DNA from: Rhizobiaceae bacterium
Lineage (GTDB): Bacteria > Pseudomonadota > Alphaproteobacteria > Rhizobiales > Rhizobiaceae
Assembly: GCA_014238155.1 (NCBI GenBank)
Contig: JABABQ010000072.1
Span: 1-64,000, forward strand
DNA: 64,000 nucleotides
Reading direction: 5' to 3'
Part shown: positions 343 to 9,135 of the stretch, piece by piece
How the letters are laid out: every line of letters starts with the position of its first letter
How positions within the stretch are numbered: position 1 is the first letter of the stretch
The notes under the pieces: model-generated
The model's input: the letters and a program-made list of their open reading frames with translations, nothing else
Told to the model about the DNA's origin: nothing
Database searches by the model: none
Position numbers and translations under genes: made by a program

Positions 343-1269
343 TCAACGTGACTCGGATCCGTCATAGCTTTCGCCCAGCGCAAAGGGAGCGTGCAATTTC
401 AGACGGGCGGCATTTGTCGATATAATCGCCAATACAACAATTGTTACTATATAAGGAAGGCTGGACAAAAGTTGTGATGGAACCGCCGCTCCCAGAGACT
501 GTGCGATCAATTCTCCCAGTGAGACCATACCAAACAGATAGGCGCCCAGAATTATCCGCCCGGTCTTCCAGGTTCCGAAGACAACCAGGGCAACGGCGAT
601 CCATCCCCTGCCTGCAATCATCCCGTCGGCCCAAAGCGGAGTATATATTGTTGAAGCGTAAGCGCCCGCAAATCCGGCGAAGAGACCACCGAAAACCACG
701 GCTCCATAACGTATCAGAGGAACTGAATAACCAAGTGCCTGGGCGGCATGAGGGTTTTCTCCAACCGATCTGATAGCCAGTCCCAATCGTGTATATTTAA
801 GGCAATAACCAATTGCGACAGCGGTCGCAAGCGTCAGATACACCACAATATTGTGCTGAAACAACACCGGCCCCAGCAATGGAATATCGCTCAACATTGG
901 AATATGCACGTTTCCGGCGGATGCAACCGTCAGACTTTCATGTTTGCGTCCAATCAACGCGGACAGGCCCAACCCCAAAATTCCAACCGCGAGTCCGGTT
1001 GCGACCTGATTGGCCAAAAACGTAATCGCTACGGTGGCGTAAACTAAAGAAACGATGATCCCGGCAAATCCCGCGACCGCAAAGCCAATCAGATGACTTC
1101 CAGTCTCATATGTTGCGACAAACCCAGCAGCAGCAGACACCGCCATCATGCCTTCGACACCAAGGTTAAGCATACCGGATTTTTCAGCGATCAATTCTCC
1201 CAATGCAGCCAGCAAAAAAACTGTGGCTGCACTCATTGTTCCAGCCAAAAAGAATTCAATGGTGGTCAT
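343..1269 (-). CDS. ABC transporter permease, BMP/nucleoside-type importer (second permease)
   Basis: An integral membrane permease of 308 residues in the BPD-transporter-2 family that also holds RbsC, YufQ and NupQ. The sequence is hydrophobic almost throughout, with about 8-10 predicted helices, and carries the family signature GxLNLGVEGMM near residue 35 (KSGMLNLGVEGMMAV). Its ATG overlaps the stop of the upstream permease by 4 bases, so the two are translationally coupled and probably form a heterodimeric channel. With the ATPase at 2347-3912 and the lipoprotein-like binding protein at 3982-5070 it makes a complete importer. Known members of this subfamily (YufOPQ, NupNOPQ, RnsABCD) carry nucleosides; a purine substrate is inferred from the adjacent deaminase and oxygenase genes. 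Confidence 0.9.
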   Translation of the reverse strand: MTTIEFFLAGTMSAATVFLLAALGELIAEKSGMLNLGVEGMMAVSAAAGFVATYETGSHLIGFAVAGFAGIIVSLVYATVAITFLANQVATGLAVGILGLGLSALIGRKHESLTVASAGNVHIPMLSDIPLLGPVLFQHNIVVYLTLATAVAIGYCLKYTRLGLAIRSVGENPHAAQALGYSVPLIRYGAVVFGGLFAGFAGAYASTIYTPLWADGMIAGRGWIAVALVVFGTWKTGRIILGAYLFGMVSLGELIAQSLGAAVPSQLLSSLPYIVTIVVLAIISTNAARLKLHAPFALGESYDGSESR

Positions 1270-2357
1270 GAGCTCACCTTGGCTGACTGAAGAACTCCAG
1301 GCCTATGAATGCGAAGACGGTAGTTCACGAACGTGTAAGTTGCGAGATAGAAGACCAACAAAAGGCCCTGAAACACATGCACAGCGCTAATCGGCACGTC
1401 AGCGGATACCAACGCAACATCTCCGCCAATCTGAATGACGGCCAGAAAGAACGCAGCGAAAATGATGCCTAAGGGGTGTAGCGCACCCAGATAAGCAACA
1501 ATAATCGCGGAGTACCCATACCCAGACGTAATTGATCTTTGTAGTTGTGCAATTGGGCCCGCGACTTCACTCATACCAGCCAGACCTGCAGCAAATCCGG
1601 CAAGCAACAAGCTGCTCCATACAGCTCCCTTAGCACTGAAACCGGCATAAGTTGCGGCATTAGGCGCAAGCCCGCCAACTTCCAGTTTAAACCCGCCAAA
1701 CCGCTTCTCCATGAATATCCAGACCGCTATTGTAAAGAGGATTGGAATAATGATGGAGGTGTTCAGCCTTGTTCCCTGAAACAGCGGTGTAAACAGCGCC
1801 TCATCTTGAAACATGACGCTTTGAGGGAAATTAAAACCCATCGGATCTTTCCAGGGACCCAACAACAAATAATACAATATCTGCAGGGCGATCGACGTGA
1901 GCATCAGTGTGACCAGAATTTCGTTTGCATTGAACCGAGTACGCAAAAAGGCGGCAATAGCTGCCCAACCCATGCCTCCCAGAGCTCCCAGCGCAAGCAT
2001 GGCGGGCAACAAAAATATAGATGTGCTTTCAACAAGATAAACCGGAACCGCACTGGCAGCGACTGCGCCCATAATCATCTGACCTTCGGCGCCGATGTTC
2101 CAGACCTTAGCCCTAAAGCCGACTGCGAGGGCCTGAGCAATCAAAAGCAACGGTCCGAACTTCAGGAAAATCTCGGTAATTGAATAGAAGTTTTCAAACG
2201 GAGCAATGAAGAACGAGTACATCGTCAAAGGAACCGATTTACCCAAAATCGTCAACAATATGCTGCTCACAAGAATCGACAGTCCAATCGTGATGACCGG
2301 CACGGCAAGCAGCACTTTCTTAGAATATTCTATGCGGCGCTCAAACTTAATGTGCAT
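1266..2357 (-). CDS. ABC transporter permease, BMP/nucleoside-type importer (first permease)
   Basis: Membrane permease of about 363 residues in the YufP/NupP branch of the sugar/nucleoside permeases. The family signature is visible as RAKVWNIGAEGQMIMGAVAA in the middle of the protein. A longer frame exists, but the start is placed at the ATG at 2357 (MHIKFERRIEY), which overlaps the end of the ATPase gene by 11 bases; the extra upstream residues are not permease-like. It ends overlapping the second permease by 4 bases. It is the larger permease of the importer and probably has about ten helices. The substrate is inferred, not shown, to be a purine nucleoside or base. Confidence 0.9.
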   Translation of the reverse strand: MHIKFERRIEYSKKVLLAVPVITIGLSILVSSILLTILGKSVPLTMYSFFIAPFENFYSITEIFLKFGPLLLIAQALAVGFRAKVWNIGAEGQMIMGAVAASAVPVYLVESTSIFLLPAMLALGALGGMGWAAIAAFLRTRFNANEILVTLMLTSIALQILYYLLLGPWKDPMGFNFPQSVMFQDEALFTPLFQGTRLNTSIIIPILFTIAVWIFMEKRFGGFKLEVGGLAPNAATYAGFSAKGAVWSSLLLAGFAAGLAGMSEVAGPIAQLQRSITSGYGYSAIIVAYLGALHPLGIIFAAFFLAVIQIGGDVALVSADVPISAVHVFQGLLLVFYLATYTFVNYRLRIHRPGVLQSAKVSS

Positions 2358-3912
2358 TGGCAAATTCCGGTTCGTTTTGAGGAGCATCACCAGGTGCACC
2401 CGCCGTACCAATCATATATTCTCCAATGTCATCCGGTGTCACATCGGCGGTGATCAGGGACGGCGACAGCGTACCATTCCGGATAACATGCAGCCGGTCG
2501 CAAATTTCAAAAAGCTCTTCCAGTTCTTCAGAAATGACCAGAATTGCGATCCCCTCGTCCCGCAAATTCAGCAGGTGTTGACGAATTGCAACCGCGGCTC
2601 CGATATCAACGCCCCAGGTCGGTTGTGACAAAAAAATAAGTTTCGGCTTGAGCATCAGTTCACGCCCGACGATAAATTTCTGCAGATTTCCACCGGACAA
2701 TGAATTCGCGCTAGCCTGTGTGCCGGAACATCTGACATCAAAATCTTCGATGCATTTTGATGTATAATCATTGACCTGGTCTTTGCGAATAAATCCCCGA
2801 TTCAACATTCCCTTGTCATACGCCGTTAGCAACGAATTCTGCGCCAACTTCATTGGCGGCACCGCGCCCCGACCGAGCCTTTCTTCGGGAACGAAAGAAA
2901 ATCCAAGCTTTCGTCGTTCCGTTGCGTTGAGCGAAGCAACCGGTTCGTTCAGCATTTCGATTGTTGATACCGGTAGATTATGGCTGAGATCTTCACCGGA
3001 GATTATACGGGCCAGTTCCTGCTGCCCATTTCCGGAAACTCCGGCAATACCGACAATTTCACCTCCGAATACTGATAGGTCAATATCCGTGAGATGGGTT
3101 CCAAACGGATCAGGATTTTGAGCGCTGAGCTTTGTGATTCTTAAAACCGGCTCGTCCGTATCGCGCTGATGAGGCCTGGCTTCAATTTGCGGGATGTTTC
3201 GACCGATCATCAGGGTCGCCAGCTCACGGGCGGTCTTCTCATTCGGGTTGACGGCTCCGGTAACCTTGCCACCGCGAAGAATTGTTGCGGTATCACAAAG
3301 CTCGCGGATTTCTTCAAGCTTGTGCGAAATGTACAAAATGGAGACACCTTTTGACTGTAGTTTCCGCAACGCATCGAACAATGAGCGCACATGTTGCGGA
3401 GGTAATACCGATGTTGGTTCATCCAGGATAAGAAGTTTTAGATCCTGCAACAGACAGCGAATAATTTCGACCCTTTGACGTTCTCCGACGGATAGCGAGT
3501 GAACAGAAGCCTGTGGGTCGACTTCCAGATGAAAGGTCTCACCGAGTTCCAATACTCGTTTGGCCAGTTCCTTGCGGTTGCCAGGAATTGTCATTGAAAT
3601 GTTTTCGACGACACTGAGAGTTTCGAAAAGAGAGAAATGCTGAAACACCATGCCAATACCCAAGCGCCGCGCTGTTGCGGTGTTACGCAAGTCTACTCTT
3701 TCACCTTCCCAGTAAAACTCACCGTCATCAGCTTCTATTACACCGTAAATGAGCTTCATCAGTGTGGACTTGCCCGCACCATTTTCCCCCAAAACGGCAT
3801 GAATTGACCCGGACATGACATCCAGATCAATCTGATCGTTGGCAATAAGAGCGGGATAGCGCTTGGTGACTTTTCGAAGTGAAAGCAGTGGCGTAGTGGT
3901 GGCTTCAGACAT
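2347..3912 (-). CDS. ABC transporter ATP-binding protein with tandem nucleotide-binding domains
   Basis: A 521-residue double ATPase of the simple-sugar/nucleoside class (relatives: YufO, NupO, MglA). Domain 1 is complete: Walker A GENGAGKST, signature LSVGERQ, Walker B LLILDEPTSVL. Domain 2 is the usual degenerate partner: its P-loop reads GVSGNGQQE, the signature is LSGGNLQ, and Walker B is LIFLSQPTWGVD, where the usual Asp-Glu pair has become Ser-Gln. Such asymmetry is normal in this family. The start is placed at the ATG at 3912 (MSEATTTPLL) rather than an in-frame TTG 15 bases upstream. It lies 69 bases after the binding-protein gene and overlaps the first permease. Confidence 0.93.
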   Translation of the reverse strand: MSEATTTPLLSLRKVTKRYPALIANDQIDLDVMSGSIHAVLGENGAGKSTLMKLIYGVIEADDGEFYWEGERVDLRNTATARRLGIGMVFQHFSLFETLSVVENISMTIPGNRKELAKRVLELGETFHLEVDPQASVHSLSVGERQRVEIIRCLLQDLKLLILDEPTSVLPPQHVRSLFDALRKLQSKGVSILYISHKLEEIRELCDTATILRGGKVTGAVNPNEKTARELATLMIGRNIPQIEARPHQRDTDEPVLRITKLSAQNPDPFGTHLTDIDLSVFGGEIVGIAGVSGNGQQELARIISGEDLSHNLPVSTIEMLNEPVASLNATERRKLGFSFVPEERLGRGAVPPMKLAQNSLLTAYDKGMLNRGFIRKDQVNDYTSKCIEDFDVRCSGTQASANSLSGGNLQKFIVGRELMLKPKLIFLSQPTWGVDIGAAVAIRQHLLNLRDEGIAILVISEELEELFEICDRLHVIRNGTLSPSLITADVTPDDIGEYMIGTAGAPGDAPQNEPEFANAH

Positions 3913-3981
3913 ATTGTTCAATCGCAAAATTCAACACAGCCGATATCGATTTCGACACCGGCTGTGGTGATTCTGCACTAC

Positions 3982-5070
3982 CTATTTCGGCAGCGGTGAG
4001 TTCACACCTTGAACGTGCCAGTTCATTCCCAGGATGGCACCGTCTACAAGTCGCTTACCGGCAGCAACAACTTCTTTGCCTTCCTGATTGACCAGCGGGC
4101 CATCATAGACATGCTTTTCTCCTGATGCGATCGCAGCCTCTGTAGCCTTGATCTTGGCCATCATGTCGGCACTAATGTCCGAGCTCCAGTCTTCAACCAC
4201 TACAGTATCTTCTTTCATACCCAGCCATTGGTTCTGGCCTTTAAATTTCCCAGCCAAATGAGCTTCCACTGATGCCATGAAAAATGGTGCCCAGTCAGTT
4301 TTAACGACGCCAAGATATTTCTTCGGAGCATATTCTTTCATGGAACTGTTCAGATTGTATACATAGACACCGGCTTCCTCAGCTACCGAAACGACTGATG
4401 GAGTGTCCTGTGCGTTGGAGAACAACACATCCGATCCGCCAGCTATGAGAGCCTTGGCTGAATCCCGCGCCTTGGCCGGGTCGAACCAAGAATTGATCCA
4501 GACAACATCAACAGTAATTTCAGGGTCAATACTCCGTGCGCCCAGAGCAAATCCATTGATCGTCGAGATCAGTTCCGGAATGGCAAACGCCGATACCACA
4601 CCCAGTTTTTTTGTCTTGGTCAGTTCCGCAGCCGCCATCCCCATCAGGTAGGCACCTTCGAAATATTTCGCTGTGAACGGAGAAAAGTTCTTTGCAACCT
4701 TATAGCCGGATGCATGAACGAACGACAGGTTCGGGTTTCGCTTAGCCAGTTTCAGTCCACCATTCATGTAACCGAACGACCCAAGTACCAGGAACTTGTT
4801 TCCGTCGCCGACCATCTTGTTCATGATACGCTCAGCGTCAGGTCCTTCCTGAATGTTCTCTACCAGATTGATTTTGACTTTATCGCCGTGCTTCGCTTTG
4901 ACCTTGTCCAAACCGTCAGCAAGTGCTTTTGACCACCCCACATCAGCCAGTGGCGATGGTGTCAAAAGTCCAATCTCAAGCGGTTCCGCAGTTGCAGCTG
5001 AATGGGCGAAGACCCCGGCTAGGGTTGCAGCCAATGAAAGCTTTGCCAGGCTCTTTAGAATGGATTTCAT
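3982..5070 (-). CDS. BMP family ABC transporter substrate-binding protein
   Basis: A periplasmic binding protein of 362 residues in the BMP/PnrA family (PF02608), the nucleoside-binding class. An N-terminal signal peptide is clear (basic MKSILKSLAK, hydrophobic core, cleavage near AHSAATAEP). The mature part starts with the family pattern IGLLTPSPLADVGWSKALADG and has the conserved DTPSVVSVAEEAGVYVYN stretch. A strong Shine-Dalgarno (AAAGGAGG) sits 9 bases before the ATG. The gene follows the amidohydrolase by only 28 bases, so uptake and catabolism appear co-transcribed. PnrA and relatives bind guanosine, inosine and other purines, which supports a purine-like ligand here, but binding-site residues were not checked against a structure. 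Confidence 0.92.
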   Translation of the reverse strand: MKSILKSLAKLSLAATLAGVFAHSAATAEPLEIGLLTPSPLADVGWSKALADGLDKVKAKHGDKVKINLVENIQEGPDAERIMNKMVGDGNKFLVLGSFGYMNGGLKLAKRNPNLSFVHASGYKVAKNFSPFTAKYFEGAYLMGMAAAELTKTKKLGVVSAFAIPELISTINGFALGARSIDPEITVDVVWINSWFDPAKARDSAKALIAGGSDVLFSNAQDTPSVVSVAEEAGVYVYNLNSSMKEYAPKKYLGVVKTDWAPFFMASVEAHLAGKFKGQNQWLGMKEDTVVVEDWSSDISADMMAKIKATEAAIASGEKHVYDGPLVNQEGKEVVAAGKRLVDGAILGMNWHVQGVNSPLPK

Positions 5071-5098: not shown

Positions 5099-6499
5099 TT
5101 AGCTCTCGCTGTAAACAACCCGATTGACGTGGTGCTGAGCCTGAGCTGCCAATTGCATTTCATCGATCCCAGGAAACTCCCCATCCCTCCAGACAACCTG
5201 TCCGTTAATCATTGTCAGGTCAACATTATCCGCAATTCCCACTTTTGCAATCAGGCTTTCAGGATCATGAAGTGTGCCGACAAACTCTATCTTTCGGGTA
5301 TCTATTGCAAACAGATCAGCGGCCATACCTACTCCCAGCACGCCTAAATCCGGCCGCCTCAACACATCAGCGCCACCGCGAGTGGCGTAGTGCAGAAATC
5401 GCTGCGGATCGGGGACAGGATGAGCGCGACTTGAAGCCACCAGAGCCTGCAACATGTAGGCGCTGTGGATACAATGCATCAGATTGGAATTGTCGTTCGA
5501 AGCGGCGCCATCTGCACCAAGACTGATCCGTACCCCCATGGCTTCCATTTCAGGTATAGGCGTAACCTCTGCGCCAACCAGATAAACCGGCTCCGGACAG
5601 TGAGAGACACCGGTTTTGGTTTGGGCAAGTTTGCTGATTTCTTCGGACGTTAGTTCCCAGCAATGGGCAAGCCAGACATCTTCACCAACAAATCCGATGT
5701 CCTCGCACCAGTCTACAGTTCGCATTCCGGTGCGTTGTTTGATGACTTCGCTTTCCCCCTCACCAACATGAGAATGCAGCAGAACACCTTTGTCGCGGGC
5801 AAGCGCAATCGATTCGACAAACGTTTCTCTGTAGGAATTGACCGGTTGGCACGGCGCGATTGCAACCTGACGCATGCTGAAAGGGTCACTGTCGTGATAG
5901 GTGTCGATTAGTCGCGCGCAGTCTGAAATAAACTCATCCGTGCTCTCCCTCATTTCATCGGGGATTGTACTGCCTTGCGACTTGGGCAGTGTGTTTCCAC
6001 CCCGGCCGGCATGGAACCGCATACCCAACAGCGACGCAGCTTCAAACTGCCGGTCGACGATGTTTTTGCCGGCATGTCGTGGGAAGTTGTATTGATGATC
6101 GAAAGCCGTGGTGCAGCCATGTTTGATCAGCTCGCCCATTGCCACGACGGAAGAATGATAGAAACACTCTTCATCCAGACGGCAAAATACGGGATAGATG
6201 CGATCCAGCCACTCAATCACTGTCAGTTTCGTCCAGTCCAGTTCCGCATTGTTACGGACAAAGCACTGAAAGAAATGATGGTGAGTATTGATCAGACCAG
6301 GATATATAAAATGCCCCGATGCATCGATGATGTCTGTACCTTCAGGCAAGACATCCCCCGGAATATCCCGAGCAATTTTTTCGACACGATTGCCGGAAAC
6401 CAACAGGTCAGAATTACGATAAATGGTACGGGCATCATCGCAGGTCACAATGGCATCGCATGACCTGAAAAGTGTGTGCTTCAGTCCAGACACCGTCAT
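5099..6499 (-). CDS. Amidohydrolase, guanine/8-oxoguanine deaminase-like (AtzB/TrzN superfamily)
   Basis: A 466-residue metal-dependent amidohydrolase. The layout matches bacterial 8-oxoguanine deaminase and hydroxyatrazine hydrolase: LINTHHHFFQ with the HxH pair at 73/75, then LHSHVGEGE (His244, Glu247), LAHCWEL (His279) and SLGADGAASND (Asp330), which together supply the mononuclear metal site and proton shuttle. Around residue 300 the usual substrate loop CPSSN is replaced by CPEPVYLVGA, so the exact substrate may differ. Expected chemistry is hydrolytic deamination of an amino-purine or similar N-heterocycle. The ATG overlaps the GST stop by 4 bases, placing it in the same transcript as the split oxygenase and BMP transporter. 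It could act before or after the oxygenase. Confidence 0.82.
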   Translation of the reverse strand: MTVSGLKHTLFRSCDAIVTCDDARTIYRNSDLLVSGNRVEKIARDIPGDVLPEGTDIIDASGHFIYPGLINTHHHFFQCFVRNNAELDWTKLTVIEWLDRIYPVFCRLDEECFYHSSVVAMGELIKHGCTTAFDHQYNFPRHAGKNIVDRQFEAASLLGMRFHAGRGGNTLPKSQGSTIPDEMRESTDEFISDCARLIDTYHDSDPFSMRQVAIAPCQPVNSYRETFVESIALARDKGVLLHSHVGEGESEVIKQRTGMRTVDWCEDIGFVGEDVWLAHCWELTSEEISKLAQTKTGVSHCPEPVYLVGAEVTPIPEMEAMGVRISLGADGAASNDNSNLMHCIHSAYMLQALVASSRAHPVPDPQRFLHYATRGGADVLRRPDLGVLGVGMAADLFAIDTRKIEFVGTLHDPESLIAKVGIADNVDLTMINGQVVWRDGEFPGIDEMQLAAQAQHHVNRVVYSES

Positions 6500-7155
6500 A
6501 GAGTGTTCTCCGTATCACGCAATTTATGCACTTCATGAATACCGGGCATTGTAACGAAACCATCCAGGCTTCGGATCGCATATAGCCAGTTTCGGATGAC
6601 CGGATAATCATCGTGTTCAAGTCCGGCATCGGGCGCTAACGCAGCATATGGAAAGCAGGCAATATCAGCGATGGTCGGGTTTTCGCCCACAAGCCACTGG
6701 CTTCCCCTAAGGCTTTGCTCTGTAAGACGCGCTTCCAGTAAACGCAGGGCTCGTTTTCCCCCTGCCAATGCACGATCCACGTCGACATCACGATTTAGCA
6801 TTGAGTGCAGTCGGGCTTCGCCGATTGTCAATGTCAGGTCTGACGCAAAACCGAGCCACTGAATAATTAGCGTTATCTTTGTCGGTTCGTTAACTGGCCA
6901 CCAATTCTTCCCGGCATCAAATTTGCTGGCCATCCAACCCAGCATCGCTGAAGTTTCGGTCAGGACCATGTCGTCAGCCAGCATGATCGGAAGGGTTTCG
7001 GCCGGGCTAATCTGTAGCAGTTTTTCGCCCTTATGCTCTTGTCCGGGATGGAAATCGACAGCTATCGACTCATAAGAAACACCCAGCAAACTCGCAAACA
7101 ATCTGACTTTGTAGCAATTGCCGGACAGCACATAATTATACAACCTGAAACTCAT
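6496..7155 (-). CDS. Glutathione S-transferase-like protein (possible NdmE-type partner)
   Basis: A 219-residue protein with the two-domain GST layout: an N-terminal thioredoxin-fold half (SGNCYKVRLFASLLGVSYES, cis-Pro motif ETLPIML near residue 56, glutathione-contact ETSAM near 68) followed by an all-helical half. The Ser/Cys of SGNC is at the usual catalytic position. It overlaps both neighbours by 4 bases, lying between the Rieske-less oxygenase and the amidohydrolase. In Pseudomonas caffeine catabolism the GST-like NdmE is a structural partner needed for the Rieske-less NdmC to work with NdmD; the same gene neighbourhood suggests that role here, but this is inference from context. An ordinary glutathione-dependent isomerase or lyase is the alternative. 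Confidence 0.8.
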   Translation of the reverse strand: MSFRLYNYVLSGNCYKVRLFASLLGVSYESIAVDFHPGQEHKGEKLLQISPAETLPIMLADDMVLTETSAMLGWMASKFDAGKNWWPVNEPTKITLIIQWLGFASDLTLTIGEARLHSMLNRDVDVDRALAGGKRALRLLEARLTEQSLRGSQWLVGENPTIADIACFPYAALAPDAGLEHDDYPVIRNWLYAIRSLDGFVTMPGIHEVHKLRDTENTL

Positions 7156-8000
7156 ACAGCCTCCGTCAGCGCGCCATATAGAGCGCCACTTCGTTTCAGC
7201 CAGCGACGGTAGGCAATTGACGTCATATCCGCCCGTGTCGGGATTTCCATTCGGGGATCCAGCGGCAATTTTCGCGGTATCTGATTTTCCAAAATGGACC
7301 GGTCCTGGACAAATATCATCTGCTGAAAACTGATCATATCGGCCATCGAGTTTTCATAATCATACAGTGCCATCCAAGGCCAGACGTCACAGGTTTCCTC
7401 ATCCAACGGCTGAACAAACAACGTGATGACGTCCTGTGCTTCAGGCTTTGGCGGGCAGGTTTTGTACAATATCGACACCATCGGAGCCGCGACCCTGTAA
7501 ACATAATCGGTGACAATCCCGTCGCCCGCCGACTTTGCGGCCTGTGGCTGAAAGAACTTTACCTTTGTCGCAATGACTTCATTTTTAGATTCATCAATTT
7601 TAACATCGTAAGGCGCAACTTCGGTGTGCGGTTCTGCTCCCAGAATATCGGTATGCACAAACGGGAAATGGGCAATGTCGAGAAAGTTCTCAACGGCACG
7701 CAATGGCGAACACTTCACCCGAACAACACCACAGGGAACCCGCACCCTTCCTGGCTCATCACCCTCAGGAATATCAAACAGGGGGCGCGGGTTGTCGCAA
7801 AACGTGGTCCAAACATGATCAAACTTCACCTGGACTGCCAGATCGGTTTCCCCGAAATTTACGGAAATGGCGCCGTTTTTTCCCCCGTGCAGAGTAATTT
7901 CAAAACCCAGTAATCTGGTCGTGTGACTTTCGCACTCTCCCATGCTTCCGGCGATAGCGACCGGGTACCAGTCATCTTTTGCTCGTTCCAGTCCCAGCAT
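7152..8000 (-). CDS. Rieske-type oxygenase catalytic subunit with a decayed Rieske domain (NdmC-like)
   Basis: A 282-residue protein carrying the catalytic half of an aromatic-ring-hydroxylating/N-demethylating oxygenase. The non-heme iron site is intact: EN-FLD-IAHFPFVH gives the bridging Asp108 and ligands His111 and His116, and VQDRSILENQ gives Asp233. The N-terminal ~95 residues begin like a normal oxygenase (DDWYPVAIAGSM, TRLLGFEITL) but the two CxH / CxxH cluster-binding motifs are absent and the domain is shortened. It therefore needs an external Rieske centre, most likely the protein encoded immediately upstream (8000-8701, one-base overlap). NdmC, the caffeine-pathway N7-demethylase, is also a Rieske-less oxygenase of about this size. 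Substrate is unknown; purine or N-methylpurine is inferred. Confidence 0.85.
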   Translation of the reverse strand: MLGLERAKDDWYPVAIAGSMGECESHTTRLLGFEITLHGGKNGAISVNFGETDLAVQVKFDHVWTTFCDNPRPLFDIPEGDEPGRVRVPCGVVRVKCSPLRAVENFLDIAHFPFVHTDILGAEPHTEVAPYDVKIDESKNEVIATKVKFFQPQAAKSAGDGIVTDYVYRVAAPMVSILYKTCPPKPEAQDVITLFVQPLDEETCDVWPWMALYDYENSMADMISFQQMIFVQDRSILENQIPRKLPLDPRMEIPTRADMTSIAYRRWLKRSGALYGALTEAV

Positions 8001-8701
8001 TATAATTCGTCCTGACAGTCTGAATTTGGTACGTTTTTTGTTCGCTCTGCCTGTCTCCTGACAGTTTCACTCCACCTTGAAATCCCGATCATCCCGTCAA
8101 CGGACCAATCGCCTGCCGCCAAGATATGCGCTATCATGGATTGATCGGACGGCTGTTGAAGCAACACAACCACACTGTTCAAACCGTTTGCAGATTTGAA
8201 TTCCAACCGGTTTGAGCCTTCCGCGATATCGTGGATCGACAGTTCACCGCCACTTCCATCAGCAACTGAAGAGCCGATCAAAGCATCTTTGGCCGCTTTA
8301 GCAGAGCATGAAAAAGTGATGCTTCTTACCGGTTTAGAATCGCCAGGGAGATCTTGTCCGCCTGCAGCCCCGTCGACAGAGACCCAAAGTACCCCGTCCT
8401 GATCGATGATTGAAAATACGGTCGTTTGAATAGTACCAGGCGGTTCGAGGTCGGGGTGAGCTGGAATATAGTTGCAGACACCATCACTTCCATAGTGCCA
8501 GCCATGGTAAAGACATGCGAGAGATTCTCCACGAACAAATCCGTGGGAAAGACGCATACCACGGTGGGGACAGCGATTAAGCCAGGCTGACAACTTGCCG
8601 GACACACCCCGCCATACAGCGATATCTGCATCTCCCACTCGGGCCTGCATAACCCTTTGGCTGGGAAGATTTACAGAAAGGCCGACCGGCTCTGTTGTCA
8701 T
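8000..8701 (-). CDS. Rieske [2Fe-2S] protein, separate cluster subunit of a split oxygenase
   Basis: A 233-residue protein whose N-terminal 110 residues form a Rieske domain: NRCPHRGMRLSHG supplies Cys44 and His46, and LACLYHGWHY supplies Cys63 and His66. The C-terminal ~120 residues look like a worn-down oxygenase catalytic domain: VVVLLQQPSDQSMIAHILAA lines up with VITLFVQPLDEETCDVWPWM of the neighbouring protein, but the iron-binding HxxxxH helix and the carboxylate are missing. This suggests the pair arose by duplication of one Rieske oxygenase followed by opposite losses. The gene ends in TAATG shared with the next start. It should receive electrons from a reductase encoded elsewhere and pass them to the 7152-8000 protein. 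Confidence 0.85.
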   Translation of the reverse strand: MTTEPVGLSVNLPSQRVMQARVGDADIAVWRGVSGKLSAWLNRCPHRGMRLSHGFVRGESLACLYHGWHYGSDGVCNYIPAHPDLEPPGTIQTTVFSIIDQDGVLWVSVDGAAGGQDLPGDSKPVRSITFSCSAKAAKDALIGSSVADGSGGELSIHDIAEGSNRLEFKSANGLNSVVVLLQQPSDQSMIAHILAAGDWSVDGMIGISRWSETVRRQAERTKNVPNSDCQDEL

Positions 8702-8853: not shown

Positions 8854-9135
8854 TCAAATAATCTCGACAAAGCCACTAACGGATTTAGTCCAAATTGCTG
8901 ACGTCGCTTCAATATCATCAACGGTCACGCTGTACGGACCGATACTACAGGCTAATTCCAATGCTTCTAGCAACACGGGGTTGCCATGAACCAGAACTTC
9001 AATGTGAGTATCGTCTTGAACTTTCACCCAGCCCGCCAAATTCAGCACGCCTGCCCGATGACATATCCAATCAGGAAACTCACCACTTCGGAATTGCCCG
9101 CATATGCTTAGTTGCAACGTGATATCATCCTGCAT
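8854..9135 (-). CDS. Acylphosphatase-fold protein lacking both catalytic residues
   Basis: A 93-residue protein that follows the acylphosphatase pattern: an N-terminal strand, a glycine-rich loop ending in W23, helix, GWV at 35-37, IEVLVHG, a second helix (LLEALELACSIGP) and SVTVDDIEA. In active enzymes the loop ends GVGFR-x-W and the strand reads GWVRN; here the Arg is Pro21 and the Asn is Val39, so acyl-phosphate hydrolysis is not expected. It lies 152 bases upstream of the Rieske gene in the same orientation, and is probably the first gene of the operon. A structural or ligand-binding role is possible. The family call rests on pattern recognition alone. Confidence 0.65.
   Translation of the reverse strand: MQDDITLQLSICGQFRSGEFPDWICHRAGVLNLAGWVKVQDDTHIEVLVHGNPVLLEALELACSIGPYSVTVDDIEATSAIWTKSVSGFVEII

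Follow-up and report, generated by a model that had tools for sequence, protein, structure and literature searches.

A stretch of 64,000 nucleotides from a Rhizobiaceae bacterium (positions 1 to 64,000 of the forward strand of contig JABABQ010000072.1, assembly GCA_014238155.1; hereafter the window) carries two adjacent genes whose products divide the two metal sites of a Rieske oxygenase between them. Rieske oxygenases normally hold both metal centres in one chain and form a head-to-tail ring. In the window, one protein of 233 residues has the Rieske ligands and another of 282 residues has the catalytic iron site. Both are encoded on the minus strand, where the order of transcription is an acylphosphatase-like open reading frame (ORF), the Rieske gene, the catalytic gene, a GST-like gene, an amidohydrolase gene and a BMP-type ABC importer (343-5070). 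The Rieske and catalytic frames overlap by one base (TAATG), and overlaps of four bases each join catalytic to GST-like and GST-like to amidohydrolase gene. An earlier note, made from the sequence alone, had read the pair as a split oxygenase; the present analysis follows up that reading.

The two oxygenase halves

The 282-residue protein keeps His111, His116 and Asp233 and is without Rieske ligands; the residue numbers given in the earlier note are right, and the iron site is invariant in homologs. In an alignment of 50 sequences (the window protein and 49 homologs), E104, N105, D108, H111 and H116 are conserved in every one of the 49 rows that extend so far (the truncated L049 does not), and D233 in 50/50. 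D108 lies three residues before the first iron ligand, H111, in 49/49 rows, which is the position of the bridging Asp of Rieske oxygenase alpha subunits. None of the catalytic homologs has CxH and CxxH together within its first 120 residues; single half-motifs occur as CESH in the window protein and CKH in L025. A KshA_C match in Pfam stays just below the cut-off. Against solved structures, the protein aligns from residue 57 on to residues 110-333 of SxtT/SxtDIOX, with NdmA next, and Foldseek gives SxtT/GxtA as the best match of its model.

The model of the catalytic subunit (predicted local distance difference test, pLDDT, 82.5; predicted template modelling score, pTM, 0.84) has six strands at residues 12-66, where the Rieske domain would be. 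Compared whole against whole, the catalytic and Rieske-protein profiles match, starting at the N-terminus (E 1.8e-10, probability 96.9); E-values of such profile comparisons refer to single comparisons, and the reductase parts of fused rows were trimmed first. As modelled, the subunit appears to keep the base strands of a Rieske domain without the cluster-binding part. An N-terminus drawn from a non-Rieske family, which the earlier note had asked to be checked, is ruled out by this profile match and the model: the region aligns to the Rieske protein and to no other family.

In the 233-residue protein the Rieske ligands are C44, H46, C63 and H66, which are invariant in 48/48 Rieske proteins, five of these being fusions of the NdmD type described below. 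The motif [DEN]xxHxxxxH was found within residues 101-260 of no Rieske protein of the aligned set, in agreement with the earlier statement that the C-terminal half has no iron ligands. A far sub-threshold Pfam match to ScfRs was taken as chance. The protein aligns to SxtT residues 27-122 (best solved structures SxtT/SxtDIOX, next NdmA). Its model (pLDDT 93.2, pTM 0.88) continues after the Rieske domain with a strand, a helix, more strands and a long last helix, and Foldseek ranks SxtT/GxtA first, with a template modelling (TM) score of about 0.7 on the query and a root mean square deviation (rmsd) of 6-10 Å. The window and L015-L052 supplied the 37 and 38 rows of the structure alignments. The part behind the Rieske domain, cut at residue 122, matches the catalytic profile over 36 columns (E 5.1e-6, probability 86, score 39.2). 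This C-terminal half is a shrunken catalytic-like domain without iron ligands; the models and the two profile matches thus bear out the traces of the lost half that had been reported for both proteins.

Neither window protein unites Rieske and iron ligands in one chain as a canonical alpha subunit does. By sequence and by fold, both halves have SxtT/GxtA as their best solved relatives; unlike the window pair, these carry both domains in one chain, and they were solved with saxitoxin-type ligands according to the entry titles. The methylxanthine N-demethylases NdmA and NdmB, among the next best solved relatives, also differ from the pair in that each holds both domains and both metal sites. They form an alpha3-alpha'3 assembly (PMC12445004, PMC10380055).

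Conservation of the pair and kinship with NdmCDE

A scan of genome_contigs with the catalytic protein, which used six short peptide patterns and favours close relatives, yielded 38 loci at 61-84% identity. The Rieske gene lies directly upstream of the catalytic gene in 37/37 loci where this is visible (the contig of L049 begins inside the catalytic gene), and the GST-like gene directly downstream in 38/38. Rieske stop and catalytic start overlap by four bases in 31 of the 37 loci and by one base in four; a gap of seven bases is present in two. Profiles of both families, the search proposed in the earlier note, were run on 385 genomes of the class; the top six or eight first-look candidates per genome were scored, with E-value limits of our own choosing. 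At E <= 1e-40 the catalytic profile picks out nine genomes, and these are also the nine that the Rieske profile finds at E <= 1e-30 (G310 is the same DNA as L022). In G335 both matches lie within one full-length ORF. In the other eight genomes, that of the window included, a Rieske gene stands beside nine of the ten catalytic genes.

The split oxygenase is real and conserved, and the split, the conservation of ligands and the pairing of the genes are established. Sequence, synteny and co-occurrence agree in placing the Rieske domain on a separate protein. A full-length oxygenase as true partner of the Rieske protein, a further possibility raised at the outset, is unsupported by the VanA_C and Rieske matches of the genome: its three other VanA_C matches are full-length oxygenases, because their ORFs coincide in length and place with Rieske matches. 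The stable two-protein oxygenase of the earlier note holds as far as the complementary halves are concerned, which are paired by synteny, overlapping frames and co-occurrence, but two proteins are too few, the GST-like gene being equally constant.

The closest described system is the 7-methylxanthine N7-demethylase NdmCDE of Pseudomonas putida CBB5, which serves caffeine breakdown and consists of the Rieske-less NdmC, the reductase NdmD with an extra Rieske domain, and the GST-like NdmE; NdmE is needed for solubility and activity and has a scaffold role (PMC4408171, PMC10380055). A composition of 3:3:3 and about 360 kDa is reported (PMC10380055), and homologous ndmCDE clusters of unknown function are listed for 18 further organisms, mostly Sinorhizobium and Mesorhizobium (PMC4408171). 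The window resembles this system in its Rieske-less catalytic subunit with a His/His/Asp site, in the Rieske domain supplied in trans, in the GST-like third protein and in the purine setting. It differs in that the Rieske subunit is free, with 233 residues and, as had been noted, no reductase domains fused to it; the gene order is Rieske-catalytic-GST, an acylphosphatase-like gene lies upstream, and a reductase was not found in the locus.

Matches were present in 313 plasmid records, from which 11 with split genes and four full-length outgroups were hand-picked for examination. Klebsiella (L053) and P. putida (L054) have the catalytic gene, a Rieske-reductase fusion of 585 residues and the GST gene. 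Mesorhizobium (L057) and Sinorhizobium (L060) combine catalytic, fusion and GST genes with a BMP importer, L057 also having a guanine deaminase and L060 two catalytic genes. At its end, the L054 fusion has a domain that matches the solved structure of NdmD (E 6.2e-36). The window catalytic protein is 47% identical to that of L053 and 45% to that of L054 (41-47% across NdmD-type clusters), and the window GST shows 40-43% identity to its counterparts in L053, L054, L056 and L057; among the 11 other GST matches of its own genome the best-scoring reaches 30% (range 24-35%). The GST-like protein is assigned to the NdmE type because its gene occurs in all 38 loci and because it is closer to the GSTs of NdmC-type clusters than to those of its own genome.

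The region behind the Rieske domain of NdmD-type proteins matches the remnant of the free Rieske proteins (E 2.5e-11, probability 97). The earlier note had set the window pair apart from NdmC/NdmD as a different split; this does not hold, since NdmD-type proteins carry the same Rieske-plus-remnant unit. Judged from these comparisons, the window system is an NdmCDE-kind split with a free Rieske subunit.

Degrees of fusion and gene orders vary among the relatives. Paracoccus (L056) has Rieske, catalytic, GST and VanB-type reductase as four separate genes, and Variovorax (L061) a free Rieske gene with a catalytic-reductase fusion. In R. tumorigenes (L063) a divergent operon of Rieske and GST genes stands apart from the catalytic gene, and in Lichenihabitans Rieske and GST genes lie across the record start from it. 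A single free Rieske gene in G326 is accompanied by two catalytic genes, about 13 kb from each other; in Sinorhizobium L055 a stretch of 9 kb contains three catalytic genes and one fusion. Such shuffling would be expected of the parts of one complex.

Two side observations concern these arrangements. The Variovorax fusion (L061:7968-9782, 604 residues) joins a Rieske-less catalytic subunit to a VanB-type reductase, with the free Rieske gene upstream, and is the opposite of the NdmD fusion. L060, L055 and L086 (in G326) each have at least two catalytic genes per single Rieske or Rieske-reductase gene, as if the relay were shared.

Neighbouring genes and probable substrate

The genes around the pair are listed in Table 1. 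The amidohydrolase and the BMP protein each reach more than 100 bits in 31/38 loci. L029 has a guanine deaminase homolog in place of the amidohydrolase, and in L017 and L019 the contig breaks off inside that gene or ahead of it. With the L016 protein as query, an acylphosphatase-like homolog was found upstream in 35/38 loci at E <= 1e-5 (28 above 45 bits), the exceptions being L039, L049 and L051.

Table 1. Genes of the split oxygenase locus in the window
Feature	Coordinates	Strand	Evidence and remarks
Acylphosphatase-like small protein, 93 aa	8854..9135	-	PF00708 E 1.8e-6; upstream of Rieske gene
Free Rieske subunit, 233 aa	8000..8701	-	Pfam Rieske E 1.5e-18; C44, H46, C63, H66
Catalytic subunit, 282 aa, VanA_C type	7152..8000	-	Pfam VanA_C E 3.7e-22; D108, H111, H116, D233
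GST-like protein, 219 aa, NdmE counterpart	6496..7155	-	GST_N/GST_C
Amidohydrolase, 8-oxoguanine deaminase / triazine hydrolase kind	5099..6499	-	7ww2 E 6.5e-95
BMP-family periplasmic binding protein, purine-type site	3982..5070	-	AtzT 6pi5 E 3.6e-79
ABC importer ATPase	2347..3927	-	ORF as listed, start codon unsure; same-order homolog in importer-bearing loci
ABC importer permease	1266..2411	-	ORF; homolog >100 bits in 31/38 loci
ABC importer permease (BPD_transp_2)	343..1269	-	Pfam E 3.9e-30; homolog >100 bits in 31/38 loci

The solved structure nearest to the amidohydrolase is an 8-oxoguanine deaminase (7ww2), and the one nearest to the BMP protein is AtzT. AtzT was purified with guanine bound and binds guanine at 0.11 uM (PMC6834077). 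Five of the seven residues of the AtzT guanine site are identical in the window protein, the changes being Y45 to W46 and N220 to D222 (AtzT numbering was set by a single offset that reproduces all seven site letters). Among 34 BMP rows of the window type, six of the seven site residues are invariant and N219 is kept in 33. The 11 rows from other cluster types retain both Trp and vary at the remaining site positions. Guanine deaminase homologs lie near the split relatives L029, L057, L063, L086 and L092 and near the full-length oxygenase of L081. The genome of the window has XdhB and a glutathione-dependent formaldehyde dehydrogenase, both over cut-off, which are possible sinks for xanthine and formaldehyde.

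The enzyme is probably an N-methylpurine demethylase. An N-methylguanine is the best guess for the substrate, perhaps 7-methylguanine or 7-methylxanthine, as predicted from the gene neighbours; the N7 position is suggested by the likeness to NdmC alone. That the same split oxygenase carries out another reaction, such as hydroxylation of a purine-like ring (the reaction for which HpxD is named, with xanthine as substrate) or turnover of an imported pterin or triazine, seems unlikely. HpxD, an annotated xanthine hydroxylase subunit, is among the weaker relatives (L083), triazine hydrolases are among the relatives of the amidohydrolase, and AtzT binds 2-hydroxyatrazine and ammeline too (PMC6834077). 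The catalytic proteins of NdmD-type clusters, however, are far closer to the window protein (41-47%) than HpxD is (about 30%), and the sole characterised system with a GST-like subunit in the review PMC4408171 is an N7-demethylase.

Genes read by us as xanthine-dehydrogenase-like lie upstream in L015, L019, L021 and L050 (Pfam was run for L015 and L019). In L015, the nearest relative, the region upstream of the cluster (L015:359-6867) holds molybdopterin dehydrogenase genes and an AA_synth (PF06684) protein, and also proteins of 488 and 289 residues with weak Pfam matches, as if part of a further purine or N-heterocycle pathway. Outside the window, in C38:93266-99173 of the same genome, about 2.7 kb separate XdhB from a full-length oxygenase of the VanA_C type (392-residue ORF). 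The acylphosphatase-like protein (8854-9135) lacks, by eye, the catalytic Arg and Asn usual in acylphosphatases; it is perhaps catalytically inactive and, because of this absence, may be a structural part of the complex.

Proposed origin of the split and proposed mechanism

The catalytic tree was built from 36 hand-picked rows (31 of them split) and the Rieske tree from 35 (30 split), each including five full-length oxygenases. Neither contains L048, L049 or any row with X, and the catalytic tree also lacks L074; the tree program warned that long branches meet at the outgroups. The 31 split catalytic proteins separate from the full-length oxygenases with 98/98 support, and the 30 split Rieske domains, free and fused, with 100/99. 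The six fused Rieske proteins share a clade (97/88) with the free proteins L075, L076 and L077; the other large clade (96/91) consists of free proteins throughout. The most likely source of the pair is a one-chain oxygenase that was duplicated, the two copies then undergoing complementary loss. Duplication with loss had been proposed in the earlier note; it fits the observations and is the preferred origin, held here as a reading of the data. NdmD may then have arisen later by fusion of the free Rieske subunit to a VanB-type reductase. That the free form came first and the fusion later is, on these alignments, the cheaper reading rather than a proof.

Conversely, the free Rieske form could be the product of fission of an NdmD-type fusion, which we regard as unlikely. 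On the longer alignment two changes of the fused label are required and 3% of bootstrap trees show one origin for all six fused proteins, yet such an origin is not rejected (approximately unbiased test, p-AU 0.191); the tree of the Rieske domain alone places the six on one side of a branch with 39/9 support, and the root is unsettled. Against fission, the deepest split of the Rieske tree, as rooted with full-length outgroups, has free forms on either side, and free forms also occur inside the clade of the fused proteins, so that a fused ancestor would require several separate fissions.

Free Rieske ferredoxins serve many oxygenases, and the Rieske protein might be a recruited small ferredoxin-like carrier whose C-terminal domain is unrelated to a catalytic domain. 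The remnant match is indeed short and local, and its probability drops to 72 with the free rows alone and to 30 with the NdmD-type rows alone. The Rieske domain of the protein, however, is closest to oxygenase alpha subunits (SxtT E 6.4e-19, NdmA E 4.8e-13), the best ferredoxin reaching E 2.7e-4. The remnant cut at residue 118 scores 39.3 against the catalytic profile, where 60 column shuffles reach at most 17.7, and GST and amidohydrolase control profiles against the remnant give probabilities below 1. Recruitment of a ferredoxin is accordingly held to be improbable. A decaying gene pair or a frameshifted single oxygenase, as which two proteins resembling broken halves might pass at first sight, is dismissed, since at identities as low as 61% all 37 loci open to the test have the same two ORFs with invariant ligands, and both domains are represented, in some form, in each protein.

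Taken as a whole, the explanation that we consider likely, and prefer to these alternatives, is that the genes encode two halves of a Rieske oxygenase of the NdmCDE kind, which arose by duplication and loss and act in a pathway of N-methylpurine demethylation. Complex, electron path, substrate and order of events are inferred. A reductase encoded elsewhere would pass electrons to the free Rieske subunit, and from there they would cross the subunit boundary, past the bridging Asp108, to the iron at His111, His116 and Asp233, where O2 would be activated and the N-methyl group oxidised with release of formaldehyde. In ordinary Rieske oxygenases the distance between the cluster and the iron is about 12 Å to the adjacent subunit and about 45 Å within the same subunit (PMC12445004, PMC10380055). 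As electron transfer is already inter-subunit, moving the Rieske domain to a separate chain should cost little; an Asp108 conserved in a cluster-less protein would make most sense if the cluster docks from outside. The GST-like protein would be a structural partner, as NdmE is for NdmC and NdmD, and by analogy with NdmCDE the complex could comprise three catalytic, three Rieske and three GST subunits, in which the remnant halves would keep the ring contacts. The ABC importer would take in a purine-like base and the amidohydrolase would deaminate it, so that an N-methylated guanine, at best guess 7-methylguanine by way of 7-methylxanthine, would probably be converted to xanthine.

Several observations weigh against this explanation. 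The iron-site loop 113-124 of the catalytic model has pLDDT below 50. Among the 50 Foldseek matches listed, the Rieske protein differs from whole oxygenases by 4.8-9.8 Å rmsd; its two domains are, going by the model, either placed otherwise than in a normal oxygenase or poorly predicted. Gene pairing has exceptions: in L055 the best catalytic match lies about 7 kb from the Rieske fusion, with two more catalytic genes beside the fusion; in L059 and L063 catalytic and Rieske genes are apart; and the second catalytic gene of G326 is away from the Rieske gene. Authentic proteins of P. putida CBB5 entered the comparison with the ferredoxin domain of NdmD only, not with NdmC or NdmE. The substrate is inferred from the neighbours and from the identity to catalytic proteins of NdmD-type clusters; the amidohydrolase is below the NCBIfam PRK08203 cut-off (397.7 bits against 532), and five of the 38 loci (L022, L028, L033, L037 and L044), whose sequence extends beyond the GST gene, have neither deaminase nor importer. 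A VanB- or NdmD-type reductase gene was found in none of the 38 loci at E <= 1e-5 (queries, the L056 and L054 reductases; flanks of up to 8 kb, some shorter).

More tentatively, and with doubt prevailing, the system may represent an obligately split Rieske oxygenase family of alpha-, beta- and gammaproteobacteria. In this family a duplicated alpha subunit would have lost its iron site and turned into a dedicated electron relay (alpha'), NdmD would be a later fusion of alpha', and the main job, rather than caffeine, would be to break down 7-methylguanine released from RNA, through import, deamination and N7-demethylation. A description of the free-Rieske form, or of 7-methylguanine demethylation by such a system, was not recognised in the open-licence literature searched, which was covered as lists of papers with the beginnings of abstracts and, for some of the searches, as a part of the matching papers. 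A stable natural separation, with the relay as a small subunit of its own, would give a handle on inter-subunit electron transfer and would allow the mixing of catalytic and relay parts to be studied. It may also explain the source of the odd extra Rieske domain of NdmD and place the caffeine enzyme in a wider family, and a pathway for methylated guanine, a common product of RNA breakdown, can be put to a direct test in marine and soil bacteria that grow in culture.

Of the plasmid matches examined, the one that is the closest full-length relative lies on a megaplasmid of Niallia taxi (Bacillota; L081:1507-5660). It is 34% identical over residues 63-276 and stands beside the guanine deaminase homolog and, by our reading, a purine permease; unlike the window pair, it is one chain of 330 residues with Rieske and iron sites. 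With the L056 reductase as query, the best matches in the window's genome fall on domains within two multidomain proteins, 1097 and 1067 residues long, which are possible electron donors. These proteins (L093:4202-7495 and L094:4188-7391) join 4Fe-4S, DmmA-like and plant-type ferredoxin domains.

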